The translations under genes and the position numbers were made by a program. Shown here one piece after another: positions 146 through 26,971 of a stretch of 64,000 nucleotides of DNA (positions are counted from its first letter, which is position 1; each line of letters begins with the position of its first letter). The stretch comes from Polytrichum commune (taxonomy: Eukaryota > Streptophyta > Polytrichopsida > Polytrichales > Polytrichaceae). The DNA is taken from contig OX485806.1 of the NCBI GenBank assembly GCA_950295325.1, positions 23,746,001 to 23,810,000 on the forward strand, in the 5' to 3' direction. Under the pieces are notes generated by a model. It had not been told where the DNA came from and searched no databases. It saw nothing but the letters and a program-made list of their open reading frames with translations.

Positions 146-1889
146 GTGGTATTTAGAGCTAGTGATCACGGGTGTGATCTGAATGTGACACAACTAGCCG
201 GGGACATCTTGCCACTCTTTCATAATGCACGTCAACATGCGTCCGACTTTCGCATGATGGTTGATACGTTACTTGCAGCTCAATGCATGGGAAACTCATC
301 CCAGTTTCTCAACTGTCAATTGGGACTCGGCCCATTCTGGTGATGGCAATGAATTGAAAACTGATGACAAAAGTCCTCGCTACGCATTCACTTCAAACCT
401 AGCAATACTTCTTTATACAGGTTCTCATAAAAGGTGAAAGACCATCACTTTGATAGGCGAGAGGTGTAAACACCGTGAGGTTTGAAACAAGGCTTACGGC
501 CCTTGTTGAGCTTACTCGTTTCGGGCTGATTCGATGTGAGCTCAATTTGTGCTTTTTGGCCAGCGTATACACAGCTAACGAGGGGGGACATCATTCATTC
601 AGGCTACTTTAAGCGGTTTAATCTGGGTAATCCTTCTGTAGATCCAACTCCTTTTGATGAATGGAACCTTCGGATTCAAAGCGATCGATTGGGAATAACC
701 CGGGAATTTTAAGCAAAAAGTTTCCTGTTGGAATGTGGCCTCCAATTGTCGCCAGAAAAAACAAAGAATTGACATACGGTGGAAATGTGGCATTTGCAAG
801 GGCCCTAGCACACTCTTGCAGCTGATACTAGCGTTGCGCTCTCCTCTCAAGAACTTCCAAAACAGCACGCTGCAGAAGCCATTCGATAAAAGAGACACAA
901 ATGTATGCATATATGTATGTTTGGTACTTGAGCTCACCACACATTCTTGACATTGACAAGTAGGAGATGTGTGTGGGTGCTTGGACCACTTCAAAAGCTC
1001 TGTAGGCTAGGCTATCCACTCCATCCAGAGGCACATGGAAGTGAAAAGCTGTGGTTGTGAAGCTGTAGAGCAGTGCCCAGGAAGTTTTTGGGCATAGTCG
1101 GTCAAGATCCTAGTGATTCTGAATCTAACCGGTTACATGTTGACATCTTCTGGTTTTGCTTAATTCATTTGAGGCATTTCCTATAGATTCGTCTAAAATG
1201 ATCGGCAATCCTCCTGAAGTCTCCAACTTCAACCGGTTATTTCTCAAACTCAACCAGTTCATCTGTAACTAATCGCCAGTTCCAGTGAATGGGGGTGGGA
1301 TTTGAAAAATGAAAATACCAAACCAAATAGTAACTCACTACACATGTCCTTTACCTTATTACTTTAGTAAGGCTTGGAAAAAGAAAACAACCGAGGTTGA
1401 GTCTCTCCTTGTTGTTGGGTGGGCTCCAAGCAAGCAACCCCATTCCTAGGCCCACGCCATAAACTTGGCAAGGGACTCTATGCCATGGCACCCCCGCCTC
1501 CGAGGGCGCCGGCACATCCAAGCCATGAAAACAATTTGTCAGTAGTCATCCAACAATAAGCGCTAGGATTCCCACCTGAAAGGGATGGGCCCAGCCCGGA
1601 ATCGCTATAATGAGTTACTTTTGACACCACCAATGATTCCTTGATCACAATTGTCGGTCCCCACATGAAGCTCTCAAGAATGAAAAATCAATCTCGCGTC
1701 TTATAAATGAACGGCTGCAATATAGGTTATTTTGAAGCAATTCTATTCATATATGTATTTGAGTCTTAAGTTATATATTTTACATTTTAAAATTAAACGT
1801 TTTCGTATTTTTATTGAGTTATTTATAAATTTATACTTGGACTTTTATATTATCTATTGTTTATTATTTTTAAAATTACGATACTTTCT
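146..1889. other. Intergenic DNA, no supported gene
   Basis: Short open frames exist on both strands (for example 146-343 plus and 599-994 minus), but none has a recognisable domain, convincing splice signals or coding-like composition. No structured repeat was noticed apart from the boundary repeat at 1-145. Confidence 0.5.
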
Positions 1890-3706
1890 TCAATTAGAAA
1901 CGTTAGGGACGATTATTAGGTTTCACCCGTTCATTTTTGGCATCTGTTTACCCGTTCTGACAAACCCGTGCTTGCTTCTCCCCCTTTCTCTTTTTCTTCT
2001 CTCCTGTTTGCTTGATGCCTCGGACGCTTCGCTTAACTTAAACATTCTCTTCTTTGCATCGCAATTTATCATGCGCCTTCGATATATCTGTTGATATCGC
2101 ATCCTTAGGCGCCTTGTGTTGTCGTAAATTTGAATTCGAGTTGAACATCTCAAGTTTTGGTGGTTACTACACTACAGGTTGCACAGGTATGTTGGCGGAC
2201 CAGTGCGCGATGTAGCTCCTGCATTTGAAACCCTAAGTATTTAACAGGCGAAAAAATGGATTATGCGCTTGTATGCTAGAACATCGATGAATTTTAAGGT
2301 CTAAGATTGTGTAGATTAATTTCTTTTTGATTTTTTTTTTCTAAATTGTTTTCACTCTGTCTCTGTTTGCGCTCTGTTTTTTTTTCTTCGCTTCTTCCTT
2401 GTTCTCTCCCCCTTGTAAGTGCGATATCCGAGCTGAAATACTTAGAGGTTTTCACCTGAAGCTAAAATTCGGTGCTGGAGCAATTTGTAAGAAGGTTTTG
2501 GGCTGTGTCGCTCTGTATCGACAAGGCTTTAGGGTTTAAGAGGGTGGGGATTGGTATGTGTTCAGGTAGCTTCTGCACTTCGGACTGCATAGGTTGGTTT
2601 GTTGACGGAGATGTGAGTTCACGGTTGAAGTCATAGGAGTGGTTTGTAAGTTTGAACGTTGCGTGGAAAGTTATGTTGGACTCTGTGACGTTAACGTTAC
2701 TTACTCTTGTGGCGTGTTAATAATAAGCATTGCTACGAACTAGAGCAGGAGTTCTTGAATACTTTTAGTTGTGGTGAATTGTATGCTTTGGTTTTCAAAG
2801 AATTCTCTTTATGGACGACGTCGTGGTCACGGACAGGTGTCTTTAGTTTGTATTTGATCGCAATCACTTCAAGAAAATGATGCTAATCTATGTGGAGGGA
2901 CTGGAGCAGAACATAAGCCGGAGAGGTGTAGTCGACGTTCATGTAATGGTTTAGATGCCGTAAATTTCTGCATAATAGATGTGCACAATTTTTAATTTCA
3001 AATTCAGTGTGTGTCGTAGTAGCTTACAGATGGAGTTACTCTTCAATTTTATTGTGATCGCAAGCTGTTGTTTGAAATTGATGTTAATCTATGTAGAGAG
3101 ACTGGAGCAGAAAAGAATAAGCCAGAGAAATGAAGTTGACGTTTATTCTACCGTTCAGATGCCGTACATTTTCACATAAGGTGATAGATGTGCTCAAAAT
3201 TTCAATGTGTGTTGCTTTCTGGAAGCTTCTTTTAATGTGTGTTGTGGTAGCAAACGTCTGCATAAGATGCTGGATGTGCTCAATCTCACTTTCAATTTGA
3301 GTGTGTGTTGAATTCCTGGAAATTTCTTCTCTCACCCTCAATTCGTGCTGTTTGTTACAGGTAGGCTAACATTCAATAAAAAAGAGTCTAAGGCCTGCAA
3401 ATAGAATACATATTTATATATGCTGCGCCCTGCAGCCTTTTAAGTAGCTTGGAATTGCGCATGTGTAAATTTGAGTCAAGCTATCTGAAGGATCATTGAG
3501 AACTTTGAGCAGCAATATCGTGTATATCTCATGCTTGTAATCCCTCTTGTGGATGGAAACAATCGGGATATTTCAATCACAATATTTGTTGTTGAAGGGT
3601 TGAAGATTGATGCTTCCTGTGTTGTATTTAAATACTATTCTGTGTTAGAACTTGTTGACAAACCTATATTTAGGAAGTCGATGTTGTGAGAAAGAGCAAT
3701 TAGGGT
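1890..3706 (+). promoter_or_regulatory. Probable orphan promoter and 5' leader with introns
   Basis: A pyrimidine-rich stretch at about 1970-2050 resembles a plant transcription-start region. It is followed by a possible donor (CAG|GTATG near 2188), T-rich intron-like DNA, an acceptor-like TTTGTTACAG near 3360 and another ATATTTAG near 3674. A short open frame starts at 3707. This arrangement is typical of a plant leader with spliced 5' UTR. No downstream gene body follows in the window, so the region may be a gene head cut off by rearrangement. This is inference from signals only. Confidence 0.35.
2855..3320 (+). repeat. Tandem duplication in the leader region, about 190-bp unit
   Basis: Two diverged direct copies (about 2855-3050 and 3055-3245) share GATGCTAATCTATGTGGAG / GATGTTAATCTATGTAGAG, the following ACTGGAGCAGAA block and the GATGCCGTA block. 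A third, partial copy (GTCTGCATAAGATGCTGGA) lies at about 3250-3320. It sits within intron-like DNA. Confidence 0.7.
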
Positions 3707-3838
3707 ATGCATCAGGGCCAATTTCCACCTCAAAGGCCCTATGATTGGTACTTTGGGCCTCCAGCAATGCCTCTAGCTTTCAAGCCGCACCCTCACAGCA
3801 TTGAAGAGAAACGTAATATCATAACAATCTATTATTAG
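3707..3838 (+). CDS. Short unrecognised ORF, possible first coding exon
   Basis: A 43-codon frame begins MHQGQFPPQRPYDWYFGPP and is rich in proline, glutamine and aromatic residues, unlike the AT-driven frames around it. It lies just after an acceptor-like site near 3674 and after a leader-like region. It stops at TAG soon after entering AT-rich DNA, and a weak donor (AAAC|GTAATA) occurs shortly before. It could be the truncated first coding exon of a host gene. I do not recognise the family. There is no coding continuation on this strand nearby. Confidence 0.3.
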   Translation: MHQGQFPPQRPYDWYFGPPAMPLAFKPHPHSIEEKRNIITIYY

Positions 3839-4327
3839 TTCAGAGGGATCCATCCCTACAGGAGAATTAAAAAACCAAGGCAAGTAACAGACTTGCACCC
3901 AATTCTTCACTTACACAACCCATCTTAGAAGGCATGAGTCTCTTCAATTGTAGACTTCCGCACCTAAAACAAAAACTGCAACCTCAACCCCGAATGATGT
4001 AGGCGACAAATTGGCGAAATAACTACATCTATGTCAACAAGAAACGCCTTATGAACAATTGCTTGAACATGCAGCAATGCCCTGAGTAAATAGATCCATT
4101 CCACGAGGATAGGTAACGCTATTCAACAATGGAATTAGGTCAAAACCAGGATCCAAGTACATAGTATATAAAGAATGAGAATATAGTAAGTGATTGAAGA
4201 TTCAAGTAGAAACATCGATTGCACACTATTTCCGTTTGTGATGGTGTATATGGTGGGCTACACTATAGGGATGTGAAGGGTAAGACACATAATACACATA
4301 TGCTCACAGTATTTACCATATTCAATG

Positions 4328-10306: not shown

Positions 10307-10672
10307 AGACGCGGGGAACTTGAACCAGAGCTGTATTGGGAAAAATGGGAAGACAAAATGAAGAAAACCTTTCCACCCTGGCAAAATGACTTTGACGAGG
10401 TCAGTATGCTGAAGTCGGCTCAAGCGAAATTTCCTTTAGAACAGAGAGAGCCGCCAACACAGCTGCTCCTTCCATTGTTTCCTTTTCAGAAGGAGTGGAT
10501 AGCATGGAGTTTGAGGCAGGAGTACATTCATGGGGGTGGAATACTTGCAGACGAAATGGGCATGGGAAAAACTGTTCAAGCTCTTTCACTTATTGTTACT
10601 AGCCTCGTCGAGGAGGGTGTACTGAAATCTGTTCGAGACAGTCCACAGACATTTAAAGCAATATGTGTGTGA
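10307..10672 (+). pseudogene. SNF2/RAD16-like N-terminal ATPase fragment
   Basis: The frame is open from 10307, after a stop at 10304, to 10672. It reads ELEPELYWEKWED, then LFPFQKEWIAWSLRQE and GGILADEMGMGKTVQALSLI. This is the helicase Q-motif region and Walker A (motif I, DEMGMGKT) of SNF2 proteins; EMGMGKT is typical of RAD16/RAD5-type members. The frame ends before motifs Ia and II, and no DEAH-like motif is found nearby. It is on the opposite strand to the RING/helicase-C half at 6729-8959, so the two cannot form one transcript. They may be parts of one ancestral gene split by an inversion, or two separate captures. Confidence 0.8.
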
Positions 10673-11170: not shown

Positions 11171-11876
11171 TATGTTTGGGGAAAACCGACGGCTAGTTCA
11201 TTATCAGCCGATGGATTTCCCCTCATGGCCGGTCCAAATTTCCAACCATCGGATGGCAATCCGACTATAATTTCAGTCCTCCGGCAATTAGCCAATGGAC
11301 CAGAAAATGTCCCGGAAATTTAGCCGATTCTTCTTGTGAGTTACTGGATTTCAGCCGAAAGCATCTAGAGCGCTATTTGTGTGGGGCATTTGATGATGCA
11401 CTTGAGGAAGTACCCTAAACCTTAAACTTTTTGAATTATGCAACCTTTCCATGACCAAATCCAATTGCTTCTATGAAGAATTGGGGGACCCTTGGCCTTC
11501 AAGCGGTGAAGGCATTGCTAGGTTCAATTCCTGCCAAGGATATTAACTCTTCAAATTTAAAGTTTTGAACATGCATTTTCTTTTCACTTATTCAAGATTT
11601 TGTACTAAGAAATGATTTCTAATAAGTTTTCATATATTTTTAAAACAATTAGTGCCGATATAAATTCCATTTAATCGGATATTGGCCAATGAAAATATGA
11701 AAATATAGGCAATTGGCCGATTGATTTTACAAAAGACCGGCTCTTGCTGATGTAAATTGGAAAAAATCCGACCCTTCATAGCAACTACCGGCAATTAGCC
11801 ACTAAGGCTTCAAAAACTTCCCGAACTCTGGGTCCGACCACAGCCCTCACCCTAAAAACGACGGCGAACCCTAACC
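11171..11876. other. Spacer downstream of the NB-LRR gene
   Basis: AT-rich DNA with repeated GGCAATTAGCCA / GGCAATTGGCCGA-like words, suggestive of a decayed inverted-repeat element between about 11186 and 11800. A telomere-like AACCCTAACCCTAAA occurs at about 11867-11881, overlapping the stop codon of the NB-LRR gene. No gene is recognised. Confidence 0.4.
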
Positions 11877-14800
11877 CTAAAATTTTGAGGTGACGTGGCC
11901 GCCTGCGAGGGCGGCATTTCGGGAAGAGGCTATAAGCCTTCTCCTCCAAGAGGTGAGGTTTCCAAGTCCCTCGGGAAATGTTGTCAAACTTGAGCAATCA
12001 TTCAAATCAAGCTCCGTCAAAGAAGTGAGGTTTCCAAGTCCCTCGGGTAATGTAGTCAAGCTTGAGCATCCTCCCAAACCAAGTTTTGTCAAAGAAATGA
12101 GGTTTCCAAGTCCTTCAGGTAATGTTCTCAGGCTTGAACATCTCCACAAATAGAGCTCCGTCAAAGAAGTGAGGTTTCCAAGTCCTTCGGGTAATGTAGT
12201 CAAGCTTGACCATCCTCCCAAACCAAGCTTTGTCAAAGAAGTGAGGTTTCCAAGTCCCTCGGGTAATGTTGTCAAACTTGAGCAATCATTCAAATCAAGC
12301 TCTGTCAAAGAAGTGAGGTTTCCAAGTCCCTCGGGTAATGTAGTCAAGTTTGAGCATCCTCCCAAACCAAGTTTTGTCAAAGAAATGAGGTTTCCAAGTC
12401 CCTCGGGTAATGTAGTCAAGCTTGAGCATCCTCCCAAACCAAGCTTCGTCAAAGAAATGAGGTTTCCAAGTCCCTCGGGTAATGTTCTCAGGCTTGAACA
12501 TCTCCACAAATAGAGCTCCGTCAAAGAAGTGAGGTTTCCAAGTCCCTCGGGTAATGTAGTCAAGCTTGAGCATCCTGCCAAACCAAGCTTCGTCAAAGAA
12601 ATGAGGTTTCCAAGTCCCTCGGGTAATGTTCTCAGGCTTGAACATCTCCACAAATAGAGCTCCGTCAAAGAAGTGAGGTTTCCAAGTCCTTCGGGTAATG
12701 TAGTCAAGCTTGACCATCCTCTGAAATCAAGCTTTGTCAAAAAAGTGAGGTTTCCAAGTCCCTCGGGTAATGTTGTCAAACTTGAGCAATCATTCAAATC
12801 AAGCTCTGTCAAAGAAGTGAGGTTTCCAAGTCCCTCGGGTAATGTTGTCAAACTTGAGCAATCATTCAAATCAAGCTCCGTCAAAGAAGTGAGGTTTCCA
12901 AGTCCCTCGGGTAATGTAGTCAAGCTTGAGCATCCTCCCAAACCAAGTTTTGTCAAAGAAATGAGGTTTCCAAGTCCCTCGGGTAATGTTCTCAAGCTTG
13001 AACATCTCCACAAATAGAGCTCCGTCAAAGAAGTGAGGTTTCCAAGTGCTTCGGGTAATGTAGTCAAGCTTGACCATCCTCTGAAATCAAGCTTTGTCAA
13101 AGAAGTGAGGTTTCCAAGTCCCTCGGGTAATGTTGTCAAATTTGAGCATTCATTCAAATCAAGCCAGGTCAAAGAAGTGAGGTTTCCAAGTCCCTCGGGT
13201 AATGTAGTCAAGCTTGAGCATCCTCCCAAACCAAGCTTTGTCAAGGAAATGAGGTTTCCAAGTCCCTCAGGTAATGTTGTGAAGCTCGAGCATTCTCTCA
13301 AATAGAGCTCCGTCAAAGAAGTGAGGTTTCCAAGTCCCTCGGGTAATGTAGTCAAGCTTGAGCATTCACTCATATCAAGCCACGTCAAAGAAGTGAGGTT
13401 TCCAAGTCCCTCGGGTAATGTAGTCAAGCTTGAGCATTCACTCATATCAAGCCACGTCAAAGAAGTGAGGTTTCCAAGTCCCTCGGGTAATGTAGTCAAG
13501 CTTGAGCATTCACTCATATCAAGCCACGTCAAAGAAGTGAGGTTTCCAAGTCCCTCGGGTAATGTTGTCAAGCTCGAGCATTCTCTCAAACCAATGTTTG
13601 TCAAAGAAATGAGGTTTCCAAGTCCCTCGGGTAATGTAGTCAAGCTTGAGCATCCTCCCAAACCAAGCTTTGTCAAGGAAATGAGGTTTCCAAGTCCCTC
13701 AGGTAATGTTGTGAAGCTCGAGCATTCTCTCAAATAGAGCTCCGTCAAAGAAGTGAGGTTTCCAAGTCCCTCGGGTAATGTAGTCAAGCTTGAGCATTTA
13801 CTCATATCAAGCCACGTCAAAGAAGTGAGGTTTCCAAGTCCCTCGGGTAATGTAGTCAAGCTTGAGCATTCACTCATATCAAGCCAGGTCAAAGAAGTGA
13901 GGTTTCCAAGTCCCTCGGGTAATGTTGTCAAACTTGAGCAATCATTCACATCAAGCTCCGTCAAAGAAGTGAGGTTTCCAAGTCCCTCCGGTAATGTTGT
14001 CAAGCTTGAGCATCCTCCGAAACCAAGCTTTGTCAAAGAAGTGAGGTTTCCAAGTCCCTCAGGTAATGTTGTCAACCTTGAACATCTCATAAGATGAAGT
14101 TTCGTCAAGGAAGTCAAGTTTCCAAGGCCCTCATCCAATGCTTCAAGCATTTTGAATCCCTCTAAATCAAAGCTTTCCAATGAACGCAATTCCCATAGTT
14201 GCTGAGGCAATTGTTGAAAGATACCATTGATAAATATGGCCTTCAATTGACATGATTGTTCTTGAACTTGTGAAAGAAGAACTTTGAATAATTGGAAGTC
14301 GGTTGATGCATGGGTCACATGATCATGAATTGACAATAGTCGAAGGTTGCTGAGATCCAAATCTAAATAATAATTTAGATAGCACTGCGATCTTTTATAT
14401 AATATACCTTCCACTTTATTGGTTCCCTGCTTTGCAAGATGTACAAATCATATCAAAATATATAGATTATTAATAAAGTCATTGCAAAATGATGGAATAA
14501 AGTAAGCCATTGCAAAGACTAAAGAAAAATCTAAATTAATTATGAATATCTTGACCGTCGTAAACATGAAATTAATCGTCACATAAAATCTAATTCAAAT
14601 TGCACATTTGGTTTGTATAAACTTTACAAAGGTTACATGGAACAAGCATTGTCATACAAATCGTTCGTATCAATTCATACCTTGCTTGTAGATTGAGTTG
14701 AAGGAATTGAGTCAACACTCCAAACTCGAGTGCCCAAGTAGTCTTCATCCGTTTCCACAATCATTCGTCCCATGTCACGTAGTTGGTCGTGAATTTCTAT

Positions 14801-17580
14801 GTTTCTATATCTATCAACATTTACCAATGACCGCTCTATCAACACTTTGAACGATTCTATTTGTGGGATACCTTTAATGGTCCACACGTGCAAGGCTCTA
14901 CCTATTGACATGCCTTCAGGGTAAACGTCCTTGCAAAAGAAGCACGCTATGTCCAAAAACATATTTTTTTCATGCATTCCCAATCCATCAAAGCTTATTC
15001 TCAATGTGCTCCAAAGTTTCGTGTTTTCAAATTCTTCTTTGTTACCATCCAAACATCTCCCCCTATTAATTCTTCGTAATGCTCGCTCCCAGCTTCGCAA
15101 CCTCCATTTATCCCGCAAAAATGCACCCAATACGCTTAGGCTTAAAGGCAAACCACTGCAAGCTTTCACTATTCTTCCTCCTATATCACAAAATTCAACT
15201 GGTAAAGAACCTCTGGTCCCACATGAATGATGGATAAAAAGCTCCTTTGCTGCATTTTCATCCAATGTGTCCACGTCAATTTTTCCCTTCTCTTCGACAC
15301 GGTCTTTAATCTTGTCCCAATTGCGGGTTGTTATAATCAATGTGATGCCCACATTGTCACTCAAAATATCCCGGTGGAGAAGAGTGTCTAGTTGACCTTG
15401 ATCCTTGATATCATCCAATATTATGAGAACCTTCTTATCAACCACAAATTGCTTCAACATGCTTTGTGCATCCACCAAATTTGTTGGGAGGCTTTCACGA
15501 TCTTTTTTAAAGTCAATTAACATGTCACATAAAATCTCAAAGGAATCACTTTTATTCTTCAAGTCTTTGACAAAACATGATGCATTGTATGAAAACTTCA
15601 ATTCATCAAATACCGCATTTGCCAATGTAGTCTTCCCAATTCCACCCATGCCAATGAGACCCAAAATCCTCACTTCCTTGAGGCGATCCTTGACTTTTGT
15701 AAGGCTTCGTTGAAGACCAACCACCATGTTGTTCATTTTCTTTTTTGTTTCTTTCACCTACATAAACAATGCATGCAATTAGAACCTACTTTTGATTCAA
15801 ATTACATCCTCAATGACCTACATTTTAATCCAAATAAATAGAAATGACAAGCTATCCATATGAAAACAATTTTTATTAGGCATTTGAACACCAAAACGGT
15901 TCGCACCTCTATAATAGGTTTCTCTTTGACCTCCTTTGCCTTCTCAATTCTTGAGTTCCTTTGGAGCAAGGCTCCATCCTTTTCAAACTTGGGACATAGG
16001 GTTGCCGAGTATGTTCCTCTCCAAAACATTTTCTTCAAAGCTATCAATTTTTCACAAATTTCAAAAAATGTCGGCCTTTGTAAAGGATCCTCCACCCAAC
16101 ATTCCTCGATCAACCTCGTAAGCTCTTCACAATTCATTGGCAATTCTGGCCTCTCAAATTTCTCAACTTTTCTCAAAACGTGATTGCGGTTGACGGGATT
16201 GCTCCCAAACGGAGTAGTTTGTGACAAGATCTCTGAACATGTCATAGCAAAGGACCATACATCAGCATGAAATAGACTTGCATGAGATTCAAGGTTTTTT
16301 TGGATTATCTCCGGTGCCATATACTTAATTGTACCAACACAATCGCAAGTTTGTTTCTTGAGAATTTTGCTTTGAACCTCAGTTTTGGAAGTGCCATAGT
16401 CAACCAACTTGACCAAAAATTGGCTAAAATTCAAATTTCCTCCTTTAATGGAATCGGATTTCATGAGCACATTGTCCGGCTTTAAATCAAGATGGGCAAC
16501 ATGCATGTCATGAAGATAACACATGCCACATGCAATTTGATGCATGATATCAATTGCAACAAGATATGATAACGGTTTAGATTGCTTCTTCAACATGACA
16601 CTCAAGCTCATGTCCATGAACTCCATCACCAAATACAAATTTTCAAGATTTTGGTCATTTCCTCCTTTGCATTTCCGTAAAACTTTGAGAGGCCAAGAAT
16701 ATAACTCGTCTATGCTCCCACCCACTCCACAATAAATGAATTTGATGAGATTCGGATGGCTCAAGCCTGCTAGAATACCGATCTCTTTGCGACAATTTGG
16801 CTCTTGCAAAATCTTTGTTGCACATAGAAAGCCGAACCATAATGATTCATAGACCGCACCATATGCTCCTTTCCCAATCATTTTAAGAAGTTTTGGTTTC
16901 AATGAATCAATGACATTCGGAACCCCCACACTATCGAGCTCTCCACCTTCTAGTTGCAAGTCCCGCAATCTTTGCTGTAAATATCCTCTCAATTCATCGT
17001 TGCTATCATCCTTGAGAGTTTCTTGAAGAACCTTTTCATCGTGCTCAATCTCTTTCAAGGTGGGCATGTCAAGTTCAATGGTAAACCTCGAAGGATGCAA
17101 CCCTGGATGGCTTGCTGAATGCATCTCATATATCACATCCCAACACCACCTCAAATCGGACACAAGTTCTCGAAAAGCCTCTTTGTTATTTATTTGGAAT
17201 GCAATTGCTCGACACCGATTTTGATTCCCGCATTCACGCACCACAACTCCCATTCTTTGTGTAATGCGACATAGCTCCTCAAGTGCAACACCAAGCTCTC
17301 GAACCTCACTACTCAATGTGACAATCTCACCAACACATTCTACGACTTTCTTAAGTTGGGTGAGAAGATTTTTACATTGCTTCTTATTCAATACTTCATT
17401 TCCATTCAAAATCTCTTCAAGTGTACGTATTTCTTCCTTTTGCCATTGCAATAAACCTCCAATGTCATATTCGTAAATGGATCCTCTTTGTCGATATGTC
17501 CAAAACATCATAAAGCAAGTGCCAATAAAATCCCAAAACCTTGATAGTTGCTCAAAAAATAATTGTAAAAGCTTCGCCAT
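11877..17580 (-). CDS. Protein kinase-NB-ARC-LRR immune receptor (moss PNL type)
   Basis: Three exons splice in phase 0: 17580-15907, 15757-14681 and 14426-11877 (1,766 codons). Exon 1 starts at ATG (MAKLLQLFFEQL); about 230 mostly helical residues precede a kinase with GKGAYGAV loop, ATK lysine, HLDLKPDN catalytic loop (HLD for HRD), DYG for DFG, and MAPE. Exon 2 is NB-ARC: GMGGIGKTTLA P-loop, VLIILDDI kinase-2, LIITTRNWD, CSGLPLSLSVLG and IHDQLRDMG in the MHD position. Exon 3 opens GTNKVEGI, the usual NB-LRR linker motif, then about 30 24-residue LRRs. The aspartate rather than tryptophan ending kinase-2 places the NB-ARC nearer TIR-type receptors. Predicted role: intracellular pathogen sensor with a kinase output domain. 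The last LRR is cut off and replaced by 24 unrelated residues. Possible 5' UTR acceptor near 17685. Confidence 0.93.
11950..14100 (-). repeat. LRR-coding tandem array, 72-bp unit, about 30 copies
   Basis: Every 72 bp encodes one LRR built on TLPEGLGNLTSLTxL plus a variable tail ending CSSL. Twenty-nine full units follow the core closely, preceded by one degenerate unit (EALDEGLGNL) and followed by a truncated one. Variable tails recur in blocks: the pair ELYLRECSSF / KLGLGGCSSL occurs twice, and ELYLWRCSSL followed by RTLPEGLGNLIS occurs four times. The array also leaves long open frames on the opposite strand; those are by-products of the repeat. Confidence 0.95.
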
Positions 17581-26109: not shown

Positions 26110-26931
26110 TCAATGTACCCACTTGCAGGACTTGGACAACAATTGGGCACCCTCTGGAGCTGTGGGAGGGCTTGCCCGCACATTACACACCACATGGATC
26201 CACATTGAGGGTGTTGTCCACGATCCTATCTGCAGCGCTCCCTGCACGGTGATGCGCGCAAATAGAGGCACATCATTGTTGGTGATTGCAGTCTGTAGTG
26301 CCTGTCCTTGGCTCTGTGACAGAGGAGAATTCGTGGCCTTCATGTCAGCCACCACATCAGTGGTACTGTTGCTTCCTTGGTAGAATGGCGCTATTTGACT
26401 CTGCGCAAATGTGGTGCCCTGATACGCCACAAAAACACTAACATTCTGGTAATGAATGCCCAGCTTCGAATTTGGATTTTGTGCTCTTATGGTGAAGGCT
26501 ATGTCTGTGTTGAGGACAGGATCATGCAGGTCAGAAGGACTGGAGATGGGGCCCCCAGCTCTGTTGGTGACATTCAGCTCTGCTATTCGAACATTCTGGA
26601 CGCTGTACACAGGCATTCTAGGTTCGAAGACTGCGTAGAATACAAGAACAGCAAGTCCTGAAAGAATGAGCAGGATCACAAGAATTGAGAACAGGACGGT
26701 GAGAACGTAGCATGGGGAGCAGGATGACCGTCGACGGGGTCGGCCGTATACAGCAGGAGGGGGTAGTGAGGGGCTTCTATAACCAGGCTTCCCCCATTCC
26801 TTTGAAAGTTCATACTTCTTGCCATATTCACCTTTTGAGGGTGTACCGAAGGTGGGTGAAGGAGACCGGAAGGAGGATGCAGGAGAGTCATACATCATGG
26901 GATGGATCTTATCTCCTTTTGGTGACTTCAT
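26110..26931 (-). CDS. NDR1/HIN1-like (NHL) protein, LEA_2 domain
   Basis: A single coding exon of 273 codons starts at MKSPKGDKIHPMMYDSP. Residues about 1-70 are a proline/serine-rich cytosolic tail ending in a basic RPRRRSS cluster. Residues about 72-100 form one membrane segment (VLTVLFSILVILLILSGLAV). The rest is an LEA_2 domain with the family landmarks VQNVRIAELNVT, FTIRAQNPNSKLGIHYQNVS and FYQGSNSTTDV, then a C-terminal LLSKSCKWV, where SKSC is conserved. Predicted single-pass membrane protein of the plasma membrane or ER; relatives take part in pathogen and stress responses, though individual members are often uncharacterised. Length and motif order match the family. Upstream, a spliced 5' UTR with uORFs is predicted. 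Confidence 0.9.
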   Translation of the reverse strand: MKSPKGDKIHPMMYDSPASSFRSPSPTFGTPSKGEYGKKYELSKEWGKPGYRSPSLPPPAVYGRPRRRSSCSPCYVLTVLFSILVILLILSGLAVLVFYAVFEPRMPVYSVQNVRIAELNVTNRAGGPISSPSDLHDPVLNTDIAFTIRAQNPNSKLGIHYQNVSVFVAYQGTTFAQSQIAPFYQGSNSTTDVVADMKATNSPLSQSQGQALQTAITNNDVPLFARITVQGALQIGSWTTPSMWIHVVCNVRASPPTAPEGAQLLSKSCKWVH

Positions 26932-26971
26932 GACGTTCTCTGCCTCGACTGTTTAGAGGCGAAAAGAGCAC

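Follow-up and report, generated by a model that had tools for sequence, protein, structure and literature searches.

The subject of this report is a gene on the minus strand of a 64,000-nucleotide stretch of the genome of the moss Polytrichum commune (contig OX485806.1, positions 23,746,001 to 23,810,000; hereafter the window), which encodes a receptor with a protein kinase, an NB-ARC domain and leucine-rich repeats (LRRs). An initial annotation had left the roughly 230 residues before the kinase unexplained and had likened them, as a possible HeLo domain, to the helical bundle of plant MLKL proteins. It is with these residues, their relatives and their possible role that we are mainly concerned.

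Organization and class of the gene

Spliced from three exons, the minus-strand gene (17580-11877) encodes 1,766 residues, with both junctions in phase 0 (Table 1), and its start and stop are exactly where the initial annotation had put them. Pfam searches of the gene product find Pkinase at residues 232-510 (E 1.7e-40); exon 2 contains NB-ARC (E 5.3e-30) together with WHD_ROQ1, and exon 3 matches LRR families. The moss PNL class (PK-NBS-LRR, for protein kinase, nucleotide-binding site and LRR; also Pkn-NLR) is described by Xue et al. (2012; PMC3352924; papers are cited throughout for the portions of their text that were available) as having these three parts with phase-0 introns at the PK/NBS and NBS/LRR borders. 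The window gene has the same order of domains in one gene and both phase-0 introns, and on these features it is therefore a PNL, in agreement with the earlier remark that the class is known from mosses. The class is reported to be expanded in mosses (PMC10952240).

Table 1. Features of the PNL gene and its 3′ flank, in window positions.
Feature	Position	Strand	Remarks
Exon 1	17580-15907	minus	558 codons; ATG at 17580; HeLo-like domain, brace, kinase
Hydrophobic/aromatic N-terminal helix, residues 2-32	17485..17577	minus	conserved; upstream of the HeLo-homologous part
HeLo-like (DUF1221-homologous) helical domain, residues 40-157	17110..17463	minus	LNxxQC and NNxEAFRELxxDL motifs; profile homology
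Brace-like helices, residues 158-231, between HeLo-like domain and kinase	16888..17109	minus	hhalign colinearity; low-confidence model
Protein kinase, residues 232-512	16045..16887	minus	G-loop GKGAYG 236, K256, E266, HLDLKPDN 363, DYG 394, APE 422
Intron 1	15906-15758	minus	149 bp, GT-AG, phase 0; position and phase class-typical
Exon 2	15757-14681	minus	359 codons; NB-ARC and ROQ1-type winged helix
Intron 2	14680-14427	minus	254 bp, GT-AG, phase 0
Exon 3	14426-11877	minus	30 recognisable 24-residue LRR units, the last cut mid-unit; 23 non-LRR residues; stop ending at 11877
High-copy repeat near gene 3′ end	11400..11831		at least 39 other copies, 97-98% identity; start lies further left

Exon 1 has at least 94 matches in the P. 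commune genome, which were merged by hand into at least 78 genes. Among the genes listed, all 36 members of the clade with at least 70% identity and 41 of the 42 members of a clade at about 50% are followed on the same strand, at a distance of at most 1.2 kb, by an NB-ARC exon (79 of 114 listed exon-2 matches were used in the pairing, and the counts of both exons are lower bounds). A more distant relative, L052, has kinase, NB-ARC, winged helix and LRRs in one unbroken frame of 1,827 codons. Judged by these counts, the adjacency of exon 1 and the NB-ARC exon is not due to chance, and the pairing across paralogues together with the single frame of L052 speaks against separate transcripts for the two domains. 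The proposal of one phase-consistent three-exon gene thus holds on its GT-AG, phase-0 introns and on the fusion in its paralogues. An unbroken frame of 2,924 codons with HeLo-like domain, kinase and NB-ARC was also observed at L054 (G000:C4:11942600-11952200).

Homology of the N-terminus to HeLo domains

The HeLo domain of plant MLKL is represented in Pfam by the family DUF1221, PF06760 (PMC8559963; PMC10951266). Searches of the genome with this model and with MLKL_N (PF22215) identify one and seven places, respectively. In five of these eight (L001, L003, L004, L005 and L006) the domain precedes a kinase; L002 consists of just an N-terminal open frame, and L007 appears by eye to be a U-box/ARM-like protein. 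L001 passes the DUF1221 cut-off (26.3 against 25). L004 (G000:C1:60215500-60219500) is a standalone frame in which MLKL_N precedes two kinase domains, and thus a tandem-kinase HeLo-type protein.

Several alignments were used in the comparison. A1 contains the window and 28 paralogues (29 rows) picked solely by likeness to the window; from 32 fetched paralogues (L009-L040) it omits L025 and L037, which do not match the G-loop pattern, and L011 and L014 by choice, and it keeps L027 though no NB-ARC exon is listed within 1.2 kb of it. A2 combines L001 with three MLKL_N kinases, A3 is a mixed profile, A4 consists of nine standalone kinases, and A5 of 15 NLR-fused copies (NLR, nucleotide-binding leucine-rich repeat receptor). 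Six rows of A5 (L051-L056) were found through likeness to L001, so that hits of A5 on L001-type sequences are not fully independent, as those of A1 are. L041-L050 were likewise retrieved by full-length likeness to L001; no PNL served in the identification of L001, L003, L004 and L006. For tests with hidden Markov models (HMMs) the database size was set to 30,000, and a match is a hit at E <= 0.01.

There are several lines of evidence for a relationship. First, the window N-terminus has 36% identity to the standalone DUF1221 kinase L001 over 87 residues (E 1e-9 as a single comparison), and a weaker likeness to L006 (20% over 101 residues, E 4e-4). Second, hhalign aligns A1 with L001 alone (probability 95.4, E 1.7e-8), with L006 alone (77.2, E 2e-5), with A2 (97.2, E 4.3e-11) and with A4 (97.8, E 8.9e-13), the last over 165 columns reaching residue 206 in the brace. 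Third, an HMM comparison with plant MLKL-type proteins, suggested in the initial annotation, points the same way: all 35 PNL N-termini are matched by the A4 model, the window at 1.5e-10 and the weakest at 1.3e-5, with no match in 385 reversed or shuffled controls, and A5 ranks AtMLKL (6lba) first in the PDB, over residues 20-129, the HeLo part, at E 9.5e-4 with the next match at 0.12. The mixed profile A3 gives 4e-8 for 6lba and 0.12 for 6ka4. Fourth, in the reverse direction A1 matches 7 of 12 standalone N-termini (among them L001 at 5.3e-14, L004 at 3.6e-6, L006 at 6.5e-6 and L003 at 8.1e-4) and A5 matches 11 of 12, with no matches among 252 controls for A1 and A5. Finally, the brace and then the kinase follow directly after the HeLo-like domain as they do in MLKL, with a colinear alignment into the brace and the kinase beginning at residue 232. 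The residues invariant in all 29 rows of A1 include L64-N65, Q68-C69, C117, Q129, N132, E134, F136, E138, D142-L143 and W147; conservation of M1 is partly by construction, the start Met of each paralogue having been picked by pattern.

A number of results weigh against this relationship. No Pfam HeLo-type model (DUF1221, MLKL_N or RPW8) is listed for the window protein, whose residues 1-231 yield only sub-threshold noise (DUF1815 0.041, TerB 0.14), and going by the matches listed none reaches its cut-off in the 29 A1 members either, where RPW8 is matched at E <= 1 in eight, at best with E 0.011. By the Pfam RPW8 model, then, neither the window protein nor the A1 members are RPW8-type RNLs, and the best NLR-fused case, L055, scores 26.3 bits against an RPW8 cut-off of 30.4. 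The genome searches with PF06760 and PF22215 listed no PNL, and the HeLo link therefore rests on profiles, not on Pfam models directly. The profiles themselves have no match to L002 (the best MLKL_N match), L005, L007 and L008, whether A1 (E 320, 0.069, 3.6 and 34) or A5 (E 560, 0.02, 0.14 and 26) is used, and the standalone profile A4 misses them as well (E 450 to 680, and 32). L007, with which hhalign aligns A1 only at E 1.6, passes the MLKL_N cut-off (27.7 against 27) and so counts as a miss, not as a negative control. With A1 alone the PDB search yields no MLKL; A5 retrieves one only when L051-L056 are included. The window as a single sequence gave a designed protein (0.0044) and a hydroxylase (0.08) in the PDB and no MLKL.

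Structure prediction, also proposed in the initial annotation, gave helical models of low confidence. The single-sequence AlphaFold2 model of residues 1-231 has helices at 2-32, 40-59, 67-88, 93-110, 133-157, 173-188 and 195-210 and two short strands at 114-126, at a low predicted local distance difference test score (pLDDT) of 45.8, and a model of residues 36-160 is similarly low at 51.5. Foldseek gives no match at E <= 0.001 for either low-confidence model, and there is no MLKL in the best 50 of 398 and the best 50 of 92 matches, which is a further point on the negative side.

Taken together, we consider it very probable that the PNL N-terminus is homologous to the HeLo domain, and to the brace, of plant MLKL-type kinases. 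This assignment is made because of the DUF1221 link, which the unmatched MLKL_N places leave untouched; as the profiles place it, the relationship extends to DUF1221-type kinases and, among the seven MLKL_N places, to three (L003, L004 and L006). Of the earlier likening to MLKL, homology and domain order have thus gained support, and the four-helix fold is putative.

The MLKL-type module and its possible output

The kinase of the window lacks the HRD arginine, and its other catalytic residues are kept. Since the G-loop, K256, E266, HLDLKPDN, DYG and APE are all present, it is predicted to be active, in contrast to 6ka4, which has HGEL where the HRD motif would stand and GFG in place of DFG. 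With K256, E266, HLDLKPDN and DYG in place it is not a pseudokinase in the sense of 6ka4, and we therefore regard the gene as the carrier of an MLKL-type module and not as an MLKL protein. An active kinase is also predicted for Pm13, a plant MLKL (PMC10951266). In the close clade dN/dS (the ratio of nonsynonymous to synonymous divergence) is 0.26 for residues 1-32, 0.63 for 33-157, 0.49 for 158-231, 0.51 for the kinase and 0.39 for the linker; the corresponding values in the ~50% clade are 0.39, 0.45, 0.30, 0.36 and 0.54. These are mean dN over mean dS for pairs that are not independent, and pairs with saturated dS were dropped, which in the ~50% clade left 152 to 171 out of 171; all values are below 1, as expected for purifying selection throughout exon 1. 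At the level of sequence, homology, domain order, catalytic residues, fusion in paralogues and selection mark the N-terminal half of the receptor as an MLKL-type module, with HeLo-like domain, brace and kinase, fused to NB-ARC-LRR.

The hydrophobic start described in the initial annotation is present as a helix at residues 2-32, but it is an extra element that lies ahead of the MLKL-alignable part, and members of the L051-L054 lineage of PNLs have only a short, different sequence in its place. W16 and I19 are invariant in all 29 rows of A1. Its best 19-residue Kyte-Doolittle mean is only 0.77 in the window, below the 1.25 reached by a segment of the window kinase, and rises up to 2.16 in the ~50% clade; in the window the helix is amphipathic (moment up to 0.62). 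When scored with residue classes of our own definition and an optional gap, it fits the MADA consensus MADAxVSFxVxKLxxLLxxEx (PMC9950082) at seven of eight positions in the window, which 32 of 5000 shuffles equal; seven other copies fit at 3-6 of 8 (452-4206 of 5000 shuffles as good), which is not significant, and the resemblance is a hint at most, in the window copy only.

A possible course of action can be set out for this architecture. The LRRs would recognise either a ligand or a host protein that has been modified, and the NB-ARC domain would exchange nucleotide and oligomerise. Oligomerisation would cluster the kinases, which could phosphorylate themselves or their neighbours and so release the brace; the freed helical bundle, aided by the amphipathic N-terminal helix, would engage the membrane, and permeabilisation or the passage of calcium would lead to cell death. 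In this scheme a single chain would combine the sensor with the activating kinase and the executioner. We infer every dynamic step of this scheme, the anatomy alone having been demonstrated. Membrane action of the HeLo-like domain as an output is slightly favoured in our view, and the composite proposal, that the HeLo-like module executes immunity at membranes after NB-ARC oligomerisation, stands at about even chances; the ordered, kinase-gated version is doubtful. The only experimental hint for such a mechanism comes from an N-terminal construct of a Physcomitrium patens Pkn-NLR, made to extend as far as the NB-ARC, which gave a modest and variable hypersensitive response (HR) in Nicotiana benthamiana and whose HeLo content is not stated in the available text of PMC11218826; every kinase tested there, with the exception of one Tsn1 mutant, showed mild ion leakage.

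Other observations count against action at the membrane or its gating by the kinase. The DFG aspartate is lost in L017, L030 and L039, and the DFG glycine (giving DYD) in L021-L023, L027, L028 and L031-L033. It may also be that the PNL kinase signals to separate substrates, and one alternative is that the kinase is itself the executor through downstream phosphorylation, the HeLo-like bundle having lost membrane activity and serving only to dimerise, dock or autoinhibit. The catalytic K, E, HRD aspartate and DFG aspartate kept in most copies examined, the absence of the hydrophobic first helix from the L051-L054 lineage, and the reliance of the Tsn1 kinase HR on its HRD motif (PMC11218826) are in its favour. 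Phosphorylation is called the straightforward output of kinase-NLRs in a review (PMC10952240), according to which the kinases are usually assumed to phosphorylate other proteins and a direct role of the kinase in immune execution is without experimental proof. However, the three copies without the DFG aspartate (L030 and L039 in A1, and L017) keep a normal N-terminal domain, and within exon 1 constraint in the close clade is strongest on the first helix, whereas in the ~50% clade the lowest value belongs to the brace. We hold this alternative to be possible and clearly less probable than a membrane output.

A different role would be that of an integrated decoy, in which standalone moss MLKL-type kinases are targeted by effectors and the fused copy serves as bait, the output coming from elsewhere. 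Kinases are among the integrated domains known as effector targets (PMC11218826), and standalone HeLo-kinases do exist in the P. commune genome; the module, however, sits at the N-terminus, the usual position of an executor, and it is found in whole clades (77 of 78 listed exon-1 genes have an NB-ARC exon) and not in sporadic receptors, which makes a decoy improbable.

For the window copy itself, the condition of the 3′ end has to be weighed. The 72-bp LRR array (window 11948-14132, 30.3 copies) varies chiefly at unit positions 6 and 8-11, around the exposed LxLxxC strand, with some variation at position 2, and most other positions are nearly invariant. The array breaks inside a unit and is followed by 23 unrelated residues before the stop, and the edge of a high-copy repeat (~11831-11847) lies 30-45 bases beyond; the break together with the adjoining repeat suggests that the gene is probably 3′-truncated, the end of the array having been lost at the repeat. 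Paralogues L060 and L061 have longer frames, of at least 1,177 and at least 1,186 codons. If truncated, the window copy may not be functional, a further difficulty for reading it as a working receptor, and a degraded NLR whose array was cut by repeat insertion or deletion would agree with the stops or frame changes in the LRR arrays of L057, L059, L062, L063 and L064 and in exon 1 of some paralogues. Against this, 1,766 codons are open and the splice sites and catalytic motifs are intact, and we regard a non-functional copy as unlikely. The earlier description of the receptor as intact therefore stands for the reading frame and splice sites and is in doubt for the 3′ end.

Elsewhere in the window, repetitive open frames of 90-143 codons on the plus strand opposite the LRR array (11881-14097) are a by-product of the 72-bp period. 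A fragment at 10307-10672 on the plus strand corresponds to the start of an SNF2-related helicase domain, and a 280-codon open frame with an LEA_2 domain lies at 26110-26952 on the minus strand.

Ancestry and relation to known systems

A tree of 30 of the 55 HeLo-kinase module sequences, with three MLKL_N kinases set as outgroup, places the 15 NLR-fused rows and three sequences without a detected NB-ARC (L047, L048 and L049, in which the exon was looked for in the fetched stretch, about 2 kb downstream) in one clade with support of 98/95. The nine standalone HeLo-kinases lie beside this clade (93/94), and the two together are set apart from the three MLKL_N kinases at 100/99. The NLR-fused label needs four changes on the tree, which could most simply be read as a single fusion with later losses or with exons that escaped detection. 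HeLo-kinase-like genes akin to L001 are clustered in tandem at G000:C5:49253320-49399110, and one pair that was read (L041) has a DUF1221 match below the cut-off.

The window gene can be compared with several known systems. It shares kinase, NBS, LRR and phase-0 introns with the moss PNL class, which is defined in published work by its kinase; a HeLo-type domain before the kinase goes unmentioned in the available text of Xue et al. (2012; PMC3352924) and Chia et al. (2024; PMC11218826), and the word HeLo is absent from the main text of the latter. With plant MLKL (AtMLKL 6lba and 6ka4; Pm13) it shares a HeLo-type domain, brace and kinase in the same order, with sequence homology detectable in the HeLo and kinase parts, and it differs in the fused NB-ARC-LRR and the extra hydrophobic N-terminal helix. 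The MLKL family is described as conserved across seed plants (PMC9950082), and MLKL is among the NLR-associated proteins that have been sought in a wider set of species (PMC11218826). HeLo-type domains are found on NLRs in fungi too (PMC10952240; PMC9815663), which in another kingdom is an analogy only. Like the RPW8- and coiled-coil-type NLRs (RNL, CNL), the window gene has a helical-bundle-type N-terminus on an NLR, with sub-threshold RPW8 matches (best in L055); unlike them, it has a kinase between bundle and NB-ARC and a winged helix of the ROQ1 (TIR-NLR) type. We know of no HeLo part in Tsn1, the wheat kinase-NLR. Tsn1 resembles the window gene in having an N-terminal kinase on an NLR, and its kinase domain gives HR (PMC11218826; PMC10952240); monocot kinase-NLRs have been read as a hint of independent acquisition (PMC11218826).

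No description of a HeLo or MLKL domain in moss kinase-NLRs was found in the literature searched, which covered top-ranked results, with preprints and most subscription papers outside its scope. The receptor class is known; the assignment of its helical N-terminal domain as MLKL-like is, as far as we found, new. An unlikely but broader proposal is that moss PNLs are single-chain necrosomes, in which an NLR carries both a RIPK3-like kinase that is active and a HeLo executioner of the MLKL kind, and NB-ARC oligomerisation would lead to kinase-dependent release of the helices that kill at the membrane, and that plant MLKLs and PNLs share a HeLo-kinase ancestor. If the N-terminus is an MLKL-type module, it would also bear on the origin of plant MLKLs, since the P. 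commune tree has HeLo-kinases with and without the NLR fusion as sisters. Under the same condition moss PNLs would join NLR oligomerisation and MLKL-type killing in one chain, so that detection and killing could sit in one protein, a model that is directly testable.

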